From NCBI GenBank assembly GCA_009786535.1, contig WQRX01000001.1, forward strand, positions 1 to 64,000: 64,000 bases of DNA, in the 5' to 3' direction. The DNA comes from Defluviitaleaceae bacterium (GTDB lineage: Bacteria > Bacillota > Clostridia > Lachnospirales > WQUN01). A program made the translations under genes and the position numbers. The first letter of the stretch is position 1. The number at the start of each line of letters is the position of its first letter. Below, piece by piece: positions 52,521 to 56,224 of this stretch. Below the pieces are notes generated by a model. That model was not told the DNA's origin. It ran no database searches and was given only the letters and a program-made list of their open reading frames with translations.

Positions 52521-52784
52521 TTATGCCGATTTGGCCGTTGCTGTGGCCAAAAATTCTTCAAGTACGGGTAACGCACATTGCTCGTCTTCCCCATCGGCTA
52601 CAATTTTCACGGTTTGACCGCCCTTTATGTCCAAGGAAATAATGCCCATAATGCTTTTGGCATTTGCGGTTTTTTCTGCGTGCATAAGCGAAATACGGCT
52701 ATTAAATTTGCTCGCCGTTTGTACCAGCAATGCGGCTTCCCCGGGTTCGAATAGGGAGTTTACCTGCACCCTTCTTTCAATCAC
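52521..52784 (-). CDS. HPr/Crh-like protein lacking the phosphocarrier histidine
   Basis: 87 residues from a GTG at 52784 (AAGGAG 9 nt upstream); an in-frame ATG at 52793 touches the ribosome site. The HPr fold is clear: EAALLVQTASKFNSRISLMH, NAKSIMGIISLDI. The active-site loop that normally reads GLHARPA is LFEPGEA, so His15 is Glu and Arg17 is gone. Ser46 (in KSIMG) is kept. It cannot accept phosphate from enzyme I but could be a substrate of the HPr kinase encoded in the same cluster, like Crh. Overlaps whiA by 8 nt. Confidence 0.85.
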   Translation of the reverse strand: MIERRVQVNSLFEPGEAALLVQTASKFNSRISLMHAEKTANAKSIMGIISLDIKGGQTVKIVADGEDEQCALPVLEEFLATATAKSA

Positions 52785-53418
52785 TTGTACCATCTCCTTT
52801 TAGCCCTTCGGCTATTTCAATTATTTTACGTAAACGGTGATTTACACCGGATTTACCAATGGGCGGCACAAGCATTGCGCCAATTTCTTCTAAGCTTGCG
52901 TTTTCATGAGCCAGGCGAAGTCTTGCCACTTCTTCCAGCGATTTTTCTAAGAAGTTAAGCCCAGCTTTTTCATCTATCAACTGTATGGCACTAATTTGCA
53001 CTAATGCGGCGGATATTGTTTTATTCATATTAGCGGTTTCGGAATTAACTTTACGGTTTAAGTTATTGCGTATATCTTTTTCAACCCGCGCATTTTCAAA
53101 CTCGAATAGCGCCTTGTGTGCCGTCATAATGTTTAAAATGTCTGCTATTTCTGCGGCTTCTTTTACGTATACGCGCTGTAGCTTCTCGCGCGGGGTTTGC
53201 CTGGGTTTTAGGTCAAACCCATGCAAAACCTGCACCAATTTTTCCGCACGTTCCTTGTCCAAAATAAATTCCAAATGGTACGAGCGGTTAGGGTCGGAAA
53301 TTGTGCCCCCAAGCAAAAAGCATTCCCGTACAAAGCCGCGATTATCTGCGCCGTTCAACGGCAGGGACATAATCTCCCCCCGCACCCGCGCCGAAAACGA
53401 TTGTATACTACTTGGCAT
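52777..53418 (-). CDS. whiA: WhiA-type sporulation/division regulator, half-size
   Basis: 213 residues; usual WhiA is ~300-320. The start SFSARVRGEIM matches the normal N-terminus, but it then goes directly to FVRECFLLGGTISDPNRSYHLEF, normally the second LAGLIDADG half, so the first half is missing. The rest is typical (LNIMTAHKALFEFENARVEKDIRNNLNRKVNSETANMNKTISAAL). The C-terminal helix-turn-helix is intact (ASLEEIGAMLVPPIGKSGVNHRLRKIIEIAE). The start at 53418 overlaps rapZ by 11 nt. The frame is intact, so this looks like a stable shortened form. Confidence 0.85.
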   Translation of the reverse strand: MPSSIQSFSARVRGEIMSLPLNGADNRGFVRECFLLGGTISDPNRSYHLEFILDKERAEKLVQVLHGFDLKPRQTPREKLQRVYVKEAAEIADILNIMTAHKALFEFENARVEKDIRNNLNRKVNSETANMNKTISAALVQISAIQLIDEKAGLNFLEKSLEEVARLRLAHENASLEEIGAMLVPPIGKSGVNHRLRKIIEIAEGLKGDGTSD

Positions 53419-54298
53419 ACCCGCCGCCGCTATGCCGCGAAGGGTCTTTATCAATATCGCGATGGCTAAGTACTACGGAATTGGTAGGGTTTAAATCATT
53501 AAACAACTCATTCGCCAGCGCTACAGAGCGATGCCGCCCCCCCGTACAGCCAATGCTTACAATCAACTGGTTTTTCCCCTCGCTAACGTAGTGGGGGATA
53601 AGAAAGCGTAGCATAACAAGCAAACTTTCGGAAAAACGCACGCTTACATCATGGCTCATTACGTAGTCGCGCACTTCGCGGTCAAGCCCCGTGAGCGGAC
53701 GCAACTCGGGGTTATAAAACGGATTGGGCAGAAAACGCACGTCAAAAACCAAGTCCGATTCTTCAGGAATGCCAAACTTGTACCCAAAACTTACTACGTT
53801 AATCATCATATTATCAAATTCTGCGTTATCAATAAAGATTTTTAAGATTTTTTCTTTCAACTGGCGCGGTAAAATAAAGCTGGTATCAATTACGTGGGTC
53901 GCCTTATCCTTTACGTCTTCCAAGATGGCGCGTTCTTTTAAAATGCCTACGCTGGCGAGGTCGTTTTTCGCCAATGGGTGAAGGTGGCGCGTTTCTTTGT
54001 AGCGATTAATTAACACGTCGTTGCTTGCATCTAGGAATAAAATGGAATACGTAACATTATCTTGTTTATCAAGCGCTGCAAGCCCGTGGGCTAAATCATC
54101 AAACATTTTACCGCCTCGAATATCTATACCCAGTGCAACCTGCGTTATACCTGTGTCGCGTTCCACACACAGTTTAGCAAAATCGCCGATAAATGTGGGG
54201 GGTAAATTATCTACGCAGTGGTAGCCCGCGTCTTCAAAAATTTTAAGCACGGTCGTTTTCCCGGCACCCGACATGCCCGTAACAATTACAATGCGCAT
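53408..54298 (-). CDS. rapZ: RapZ/YvcJ nucleotide-binding protein
   Basis: 296 residues from ATG 54298 with AGGGGG upstream. Walker A VTGMSGAGKTT (~6-16). Family signatures: DNLPPTFIGDF, GIDIRGG, VSFGYKFGIPEESDLVFDVRFLPNPFY, and IGCTGGRHRSVALAN. In Firmicutes it sits with whiA and crh and links envelope synthesis to metabolism. yvcK, often between rapZ and whiA, is absent: rapZ and whiA overlap directly. The longer upstream frame runs into murB. Confidence 0.95.
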   Translation of the reverse strand: MRIVIVTGMSGAGKTTVLKIFEDAGYHCVDNLPPTFIGDFAKLCVERDTGITQVALGIDIRGGKMFDDLAHGLAALDKQDNVTYSILFLDASNDVLINRYKETRHLHPLAKNDLASVGILKERAILEDVKDKATHVIDTSFILPRQLKEKILKIFIDNAEFDNMMINVVSFGYKFGIPEESDLVFDVRFLPNPFYNPELRPLTGLDREVRDYVMSHDVSVRFSESLLVMLRFLIPHYVSEGKNQLIVSIGCTGGRHRSVALANELFNDLNPTNSVVLSHRDIDKDPSRHSGGGYAK

Positions 54299-54306
54299 AA
54301 CGCCCC

Positions 54307-55233
54307 CTACGTTTCCCATGGATATTTTCTGCCAAAAATTTTTACTTCGGGTTCTAACCATACGCCTGCCATCTCGTGTACGCGGTTGCGTACTTCGTGC
54401 ATAAGTCGGCAAACGTCCTCGGCGGTAGCCCCGCCTTTATTTATCACAAAACCTGCGTGTTTTTCGCTCACTTGTGCGCCGCCTACGGTAAAGCCCTTTA
54501 ACCCCGCTTGCTCAATTAATCCGCCCGCAAAATGCCCTTCCGGGCGTTTAAATGTACTGCCCGCGCTAGGTTCGAAGGGTTGCTTTTCGCGCCGTTTGTT
54601 ATTAAGTTCCTTTGTTTCGGCTTGGATTTGTGTCATATCACCGGGCAAAAGGCGAAACAATGCCTCTACAATAATGCCGCCCTCGCGTTGAATACGGCTG
54701 GTGCGGTAGCCAAAACCCATCTCCGGGGTAGGAATTTCCACTAACTTGTTATTTTGAAGCACCGTGACGCGCGTGCAAACTTCTTCAATATCGTGCCCGT
54801 ATGCGCCCGCATTCATATACACCGCGCCGCCTACCGACCCGGGTATCGCTTGTGCAAACTCAAGCCCCTGCAAGCCCGCTTTACACGCCGTATCGGCAAG
54901 CTTTGCCAGCTTTACGCCCGCGCCCACGGTAATATAGCTAACCTCGTTGGGCTTTATATCCACTTCAAGCGTATTTAGCCCCGTAGTGAGAAGGACAATG
55001 CCACGCAAGCCTTCGTCTGCGATTAACACGTTGCTTCCTTCGCCTAAGATGGTTAGCGACCAATTATTTTCGCTACATAGCTTGCTAATTTGCTGTATCT
55101 GTTCAATTTTTTGGGGCAGTACCAGTATATCCGCTTTTCCCCCAATTTTGAAGCTTGTATATTTTGCCAATGGCTCGTTGGTTTTTAATGCCTCGCCGGG
55201 CAGTATCGTGCGTAACGTTTTAATAAACGTCAT
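54307..55233 (-). CDS. murB: UDP-N-acetylenolpyruvoylglucosamine reductase
   Basis: 308 residues, type II MurB. FAD-binding: TSFKIGGKADILVLP, LGEGSNVLIADEG, IPGSVGGAVYMNAGAYG. Catalytic Ser in SAGSTFKRPEG and C-terminal Glu in LEPEVKIFGRK. It makes UDP-MurNAc for peptidoglycan in the cytoplasm. Overlaps the hprK tail by 14 nt. Confidence 0.96.
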   Translation of the reverse strand: MTFIKTLRTILPGEALKTNEPLAKYTSFKIGGKADILVLPQKIEQIQQISKLCSENNWSLTILGEGSNVLIADEGLRGIVLLTTGLNTLEVDIKPNEVSYITVGAGVKLAKLADTACKAGLQGLEFAQAIPGSVGGAVYMNAGAYGHDIEEVCTRVTVLQNNKLVEIPTPEMGFGYRTSRIQREGGIIVEALFRLLPGDMTQIQAETKELNNKRREKQPFEPSAGSTFKRPEGHFAGGLIEQAGLKGFTVGGAQVSEKHAGFVINKGGATAEDVCRLMHEVRNRVHEMAGVWLEPEVKIFGRKYPWET

Positions 55234-56224
55234 GAACCTTCATCACTCCACCGGAATTTTTTAGAACGCGCTCGGTTAAAGCATCTGCGGCGTTATAGCC
55301 TAACTTTTTTTGTCGGTGGTTAATCGCGGCGGACTCGCATAATATCGAAAGCGAACGCCCGGGGCGTATGGGAATAGAATGGCTGTTTATCTTATTACCT
55401 AAAATTTCCGTAAATTCTTCAACCTGCCCCAAACGGTCATAGGTGCGCGTACCATCCCATAATTCCAAGTTAATAATTAGGTCAATGTTTTGTGTGGGCT
55501 TTATTGACTGTACGCCAAACATTTGCATCACGTCAATAATGCCAATGCCGCGCAATTCCAAAAAGTAACGTATATTTGCGGGACAGCTTCCGATAAGCGT
55601 TTCCGATGAAACGCGGCGTACTTCCACCGCATCATCGGCAATAAAACGATGCCCGCGCTTAATCAGCTCCAGCGCCATTTCAGACTTGCCTACGCCGCTT
55701 TCCCCGCAAATAAGCGTGCCAACGCCGTAAATATCCAGCAAGCAGCCATGCATGGTAATGCGCGGCGCAAGCTGTACCTTCATCCAACGGATAATCTCGC
55801 TGATAAAGTCCGTCGTGGTTGACGTGGTGGAAAAAACGGGAACATCGTACCGCTCGGCATAATCCAGCATTTCCGGAAAAATACCCAGCTTACGGCAAAT
55901 AATAATAGCAGGAATGCGATGCTGGAAAATGCGGCGCAAGTTTTCACTGCGGAAGCCTTCTTCCAGTCGTGTGAGGTAGGTATGCTCTACCATGCCGATT
56001 ACCTGCAAACGTGACGTGTCAAAATAATCGAAAAAACCCGCCATCTGCAAAGCAGGGCGGTTAATATTGGCGCGGGTAAGCACCTTCGATTCAATGTCCA
56101 CGGCAGGGGTTAGCAGGTCTAACTCAAATTCCTTTGCCATAACAGAAAGGGGAACGGTATACCCCGTACCCGGTGTGTTATATGCACCGCTTGCGGCAAG
56201 ATTTGCGTTCGCCGCCGCATTCAT
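55220..56224 (-). CDS. hprK: HPr kinase/phosphorylase
   Basis: 334 residues, slightly longer than usual because of a ~25-residue Ala/Asn-rich lead (an internal ATG at ~56140, MAKEFELDLL, could be the true start). Walker A GVGTLICGESGVGKSEMALELIKRGH, the K-loop/signature region ELRGIGIIDVMQMFGV, and PGRSLSILCESAAINHR. Phosphorylates Ser46 of HPr and Crh-type proteins for carbon catabolite control. Overlaps the small upstream gene by 4 nt. Confidence 0.93.
   Translation of the reverse strand: MNAAANANLAASGAYNTPGTGYTVPLSVMAKEFELDLLTPAVDIESKVLTRANINRPALQMAGFFDYFDTSRLQVIGMVEHTYLTRLEEGFRSENLRRIFQHRIPAIIICRKLGIFPEMLDYAERYDVPVFSTTSTTTDFISEIIRWMKVQLAPRITMHGCLLDIYGVGTLICGESGVGKSEMALELIKRGHRFIADDAVEVRRVSSETLIGSCPANIRYFLELRGIGIIDVMQMFGVQSIKPTQNIDLIINLELWDGTRTYDRLGQVEEFTEILGNKINSHSIPIRPGRSLSILCESAAINHRQKKLGYNAADALTERVLKNSGGVMKVHDVY

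Follow-up and report, generated by a model that had tools for sequence, protein, structure and literature searches.

A 213-aa WhiA protein with a single LAGLIDADG half is encoded in the 64,000-nucleotide stretch of DNA analysed here (the window). Single-half WhiA is conserved, has several origins and has kept the helix-turn-helix (HTH) domain, the operon context and the operator. The protein is functional and has been inherited vertically. We consider it probable, though by no means certain, that it acts as a reduced, HTH-driven transcription factor of the S10 operon, with a half-domain that has no partner.

The short whiA gene, its product and its operon

The gene is an intact ORF (ATG at 53416-53418, stop codon at 52777-52779). 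Its start overlaps the end of rapZ (53408) by 11 nt, and its 3' end overlaps the start of the downstream HPr-like gene (52793) by 17 nt. The coordinates of all features are listed in Table 1. These overlaps, the intact ORF and the presence of the HTH bear out the sequence-only reading, in which the gene was described as not broken.

Table 1. Features of the whiA region in the window
Feature	Position	Strand	Basis
Short whiA gene, 213 aa	52777..53418	-	ORF and family matches
Retained N-terminal segment SFSARVRGEI, predicted helix at residues 5-16	53371..53406	-	AlphaFold2 secondary structure; motif in nearly all short forms
Deletion junction, residues 17-25; ~100 residues of the first LAGLIDADG half missing	53344..53370	-	Alignment with full-length relatives; TIGR00647 match from 122
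LAGLIDADG helix with E32, L36 (full-length: G, A/G/S)	53305..53343	-	Column comparison; modelled helix at residues 26-37
Remaining (second) LAGLIDADG half, residues 27-117	53068..53340	-	PF14527 (LAGLIDADG_WhiA), E 2.5e-22
WhiA C-terminal HTH domain, residues 121-203	52810..53058	-	PF02650 (HTH_WhiA), E 1.2e-31
HPr-like gene overlapping the whiA end	52521..52793	-	PF00381, profile 18-80
rapZ, overlapping the whiA start; true start probably internal to this ORF	53408..54412	-	NF003828, 339 bits
murB, conserved neighbour	54307..55233	-	Order kept in relatives; name from sequence
hprK, conserved neighbour	55220..56224	-	Order kept in relatives; name from sequence

The product begins with a short helix, which is followed by a single LAGLIDADG half and the HTH. 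According to the Pfam analysis, only the second half and the HTH are present, with no match to WhiA_N. In the comparison with the NCBIfam profile TIGR00647, the protein scored 202.8 bits, above the curated family cut-off of 44.1, and the alignment spans only profile positions 122-304 of 304. The first half is therefore cleanly absent, as had been proposed from the sequence. The motif SFSxxVxxEI survives about ten residues before the LAGLIDADG helix of the second half; since this motif of the ordinary WhiA start is kept and the ~100 residues following it are gone, the first half was lost by an internal deletion. The window protein is a single-half variant and not a canonical two-half WhiA, and its orthology rests on other features. 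It shares the second half, the linker and the HTH with WhiA/DUF199 proteins (TIGR00647; Thermotoga maritima 3HYI; Streptomyces venezuelae 8DY7, 8DY9), as well as the rapZ-whiA operon context and the core operator before rpsJ, and differs from them in the absence of the first half, in changed residues of the helix interface and in length (213 versus about 310 aa).

A single WhiA HTH was detected in the whole genome, which indicates one WhiA copy. The WhiA_N profile (PF10298) had no match at E ≤ 10 anywhere in this genome, rated 100% complete, in a search that is weak for very divergent domains. This result argues against a split WhiA, in which another protein would supply the missing half in trans; the conserved operon holds no candidate for such a protein, the interface residues are lost, and we regard this arrangement as very improbable.

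AlphaFold2 modelling of the short WhiA, run as a monomer prediction with an alignment of full-length relatives as input, gave a mean pLDDT of 91.6 and a pTM of 0.65; the remaining half-domain is thus predicted to be folded. The best fold match of the model was the T. maritima WhiA structure 3HYI.

The gene order hprK-murB-rapZ-whiA-ptsH-like (HPr-like) was found in the window and in most short-form loci of its family. In the HPr-like protein, the usual His15 motif is apparently absent (there is no GLHARPA, and the Pfam alignment starts only at profile position 18) and the KSIMGI Ser46-type region is retained; judging by these residues, the protein may act as a regulator of the Crh type and not as a PTS carrier. 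Four short-form loci of another family of the order, f19 (L168, L170, L171 and L173), showed no detectable rapZ in the interval from murB to whiA and lack the WhiA core upstream of rpsJ; whiA may have been rewired in these loci.

Distribution and origins of the short forms

Similarly short WhiA proteins, the possible existence of which in relatives had been raised earlier, were found across the genus and the family of the window. The four other genomes of the genus all encode the short form (five of five with the window's own), none of these very close relatives having a full-length WhiA, and 15 more genomes of the family encode it as well. As relatives share the short form, an assembly or sequencing deletion artefact is rejected; the same junction region recurs in all five genomes of the genus and in many assemblies made independently of one another, which leaves this explanation a negligible probability.

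Within the family, short WhiA was found in six genera (g1, g2, g8, g11, g13 and g16) and full-length WhiA in g4, g6, g7, g10, g12, g15 and g18, and g3 and g17 carry first-half remnants of about 35 and 75 residues. An order-wide survey of 245 genomes, with a second look at low scorers, revealed short forms in two other families of the same order, namely f19 (seven genomes) and f16 (three genomes and a further one truncated at a contig end), and a partial remnant of the first half in f15. Full-length members occur in f19 and f16 as well. The partial remnants in L025, L026, L030 and L050 (about 35 to 75 residues, with the interface glycine kept) are apparent intermediate states. The short form is thus clade-wide, arose more than once and is accompanied in relatives by graded remnants, which goes beyond the sequence-only reading.

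Among about 140 genomes of the phylum outside the order, no short WhiA was found. Low scorers of f35, f41 and f101 were rejected as short forms: those that were read carry N-halves that are divergent or contain inserts. The sequence of G332, also outside the order, is cut by a contig end. In the full-length WhiA of L241-L243 (f35), the two LAGLIDADG halves are separated by an insert that is rich in Gly, Pro and Arg and varies in length. A literature search, lacking most subscription journals, found no paper describing a single-half WhiA.

A tree was constructed on the shared WhiA region without positions 32 and 36. Five changes of state between short and full-length forms were required on this tree, and a single clade of all short forms was rejected (AU test, p=0.0013); when only the family of the window was considered, a common clade of its short forms was not rejected by the tree test. 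Loss of the first half has thus occurred several times within one bacterial order.

The short whiA genes are under purifying selection, with pairwise dN/dS of 0.05-0.17 (rough ratios, several dS values being near saturation). No broken copies were found among complete short-form genes except for one flagged in-model stop in G138, the downstream frame of which is intact. Strong purifying selection and unbroken genes, together with the retained operator before rpsJ, speak against a decaying relic that would have largely lost its regulatory function and whose HTH would persist for DNA binding of a weak, general kind. Such decay would agree with the graded loss of the N-half across the order and with the report that the Bacillus subtilis WhiA does not act as a classic transcription factor (PMC10714963); on balance, we consider it improbable.

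The LAGLIDADG helix face

In LAGLIDADG proteins, small residues at certain positions of the LAGLIDADG helix allow tight packing of two helices. A comparison of 186 columns between 141 full-length and 30 short WhiA proteins showed that residue 32, the third position of this helix, is the strongest discriminator between the two forms (average over three families). Residue 32 is glycine in 127 of the 141 full-length proteins and in none of the 30 short ones, in which it is D, E, K, R, Q or N (27 proteins) or A (three proteins). One turn beyond, residue 36 is small in 134/141 full-length versus 13/30 short proteins, i.e., not small in seven and 17, respectively.

Glycine at position 32 is kept in all four partial-remnant proteins. 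It is already replaced by E, T or S in the full-length sisters of the f16 short forms, and by A in one of the two full-length f19 proteins examined; its loss is therefore not caused by loss of the half alone. These substitutions suggest that loosening of the interface can precede loss of the half. Independent pairs for comparing glycine loss with half loss were few, only three being well supported, and gave no statistical power.

The short WhiA resembles single-motif LAGLIDADG homing endonucleases (I-CreI, 1BP7, and others) in having one half per chain and in a weak fold match of the model to these proteins (E about 0.05-0.2). I-CreI is a homodimeric nuclease without an HTH, whereas the short WhiA has one and lacks both the acidic motif residues and, with E32 and L36, the small helix-packing residues of homodimeric single-motif proteins. 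The earlier suggestion that the short form might dimerise to restore the fold is consequently disfavoured, at least as an I-CreI-like homodimer, since residues 32 and 36, which would be expected to pack against a partner helix, carry charged, polar or bulky side chains in most short forms. The former contact face for the lost half is now polar or charged, and so the half-domain is probably not packed on a second copy in the usual way.

The rpsJ operator and the role of the short protein

In Mycoplasma gallisepticum, the WhiA HTH binds the core GAYACRCY before the rpsJ operon, whereas ATP and an auxiliary motif are contacted by the homing-endonuclease domain; the core is reported before rpsJ in most WhiA-bearing bacteria (PMC11701221). 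According to published Mycoplasma work, repression needs DNA contact by both domains. For Streptomyces WhiA, monomeric binding and specific recognition of GACAC by the HTH alone were described in a study that called the role of the large, degenerate homing-endonuclease domain unknown (PMC3781837).

As in M. gallisepticum, the core is present before rpsJ in the genome of the window (GACACGCC, 37 bp upstream). The extended pattern GAYACRCYNGGNNNCGTG has one mismatch-free occurrence in the 3.42 Mb genome, at rpsJ; with one mismatch allowed, two sites were found, the same level as in the reversed-pattern control. At a chance expectation of about 0.015 per 120 bp, the core precedes rpsJ in 15 of the 16 short-form genomes of the window's family in which this region could be read, the remaining one having a 7/8 match, and in 3/3 of f16. 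Only one of the seven f19 short-form genomes has it, and therefore the short lineages do not all share one target.

The rpsJ site is an imperfect inverted repeat (quasi-dyad, GACACGC-N6-GCGTGT). A conserved quasi-dyad (GAYACRC, CGG spacer, GTGT) is seen before rpsJ in L182-L236, in full-length and short-WhiA genomes alike, and its right arm matches the expected place of the Mycoplasma auxiliary motif. Within the window's family, most short-form members have CGTGT, CGTGA or CGTAT in place of the right arm AGTGT, and the symmetry of the site is thereby slightly higher than in full-length genomes (mean 4.6 versus 3.8 of 6 arm pairs; p=0.004, uncorrected for ancestry).

An inverted repeat of this kind, with its slightly increased symmetry, would suit two short WhiA proteins paired on the quasi-dyad with one HTH per arm and the halves side by side, i.e., a symmetric pseudo-dimer templated by DNA, which we regard as unlikely. 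The dyad also occurs with full-length WhiA and so did not arise with the deletion, the charged residues on the helix face (D/E at 32, E/K/D at 36) would work against a tight symmetric fit, and the monomeric binding in Streptomyces points the other way. On the same doubtful footing, the short WhiA would be a re-evolved single-motif LAGLIDADG protein, a DNA-templated homodimer before the S10 operon with a new polar interface; if this were true, it would in effect reverse the duplication and fusion behind two-half LAGLIDADG proteins.

The reduced, HTH-driven transcription factor agrees with the second earlier proposal, dependence on the DNA-binding part, which is favoured by the retained HTH, known operator before rpsJ and operon context; given the core and the unique extended site before rpsJ, the HTH is probably still used. 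It would bind the conserved core before rpsJ and regulate the S10 ribosomal-protein operon, which the unique, conserved operator and the published WhiA work suggest is probably the main target. Functions that depend on both halves, among them the second DNA contact and the response to ATP reported for Mycoplasma, would be lost or changed, as would any protein input requiring a complete domain. The points against this explanation include the missing rpsJ core in six of the seven f19 short-form genomes and the interface glycine already lost in full-length proteins of f16 and f19. In addition, by analogy with Mycoplasma, where a complete two-half domain serves the auxiliary site and ATP, a single half might fail the two-domain DNA contact needed for repression, and a quasi-dyad operator would suit a dimer.

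The roles proposed for the WhiA domain, namely WhiB contact in actinobacteria and second-site DNA binding with ATP sensing in Mycoplasma, come from few species. The short WhiA is a natural experiment on the purpose of the LAGLIDADG domain, and since short and full-length forms occur in matched sister species, the function of this domain can be tested directly. Repeated natural deletions of one half of it, with retention of the HTH and the rpsJ operator, suggest that WhiA can lack the complete two-half fold and still have a role bound to its operator.
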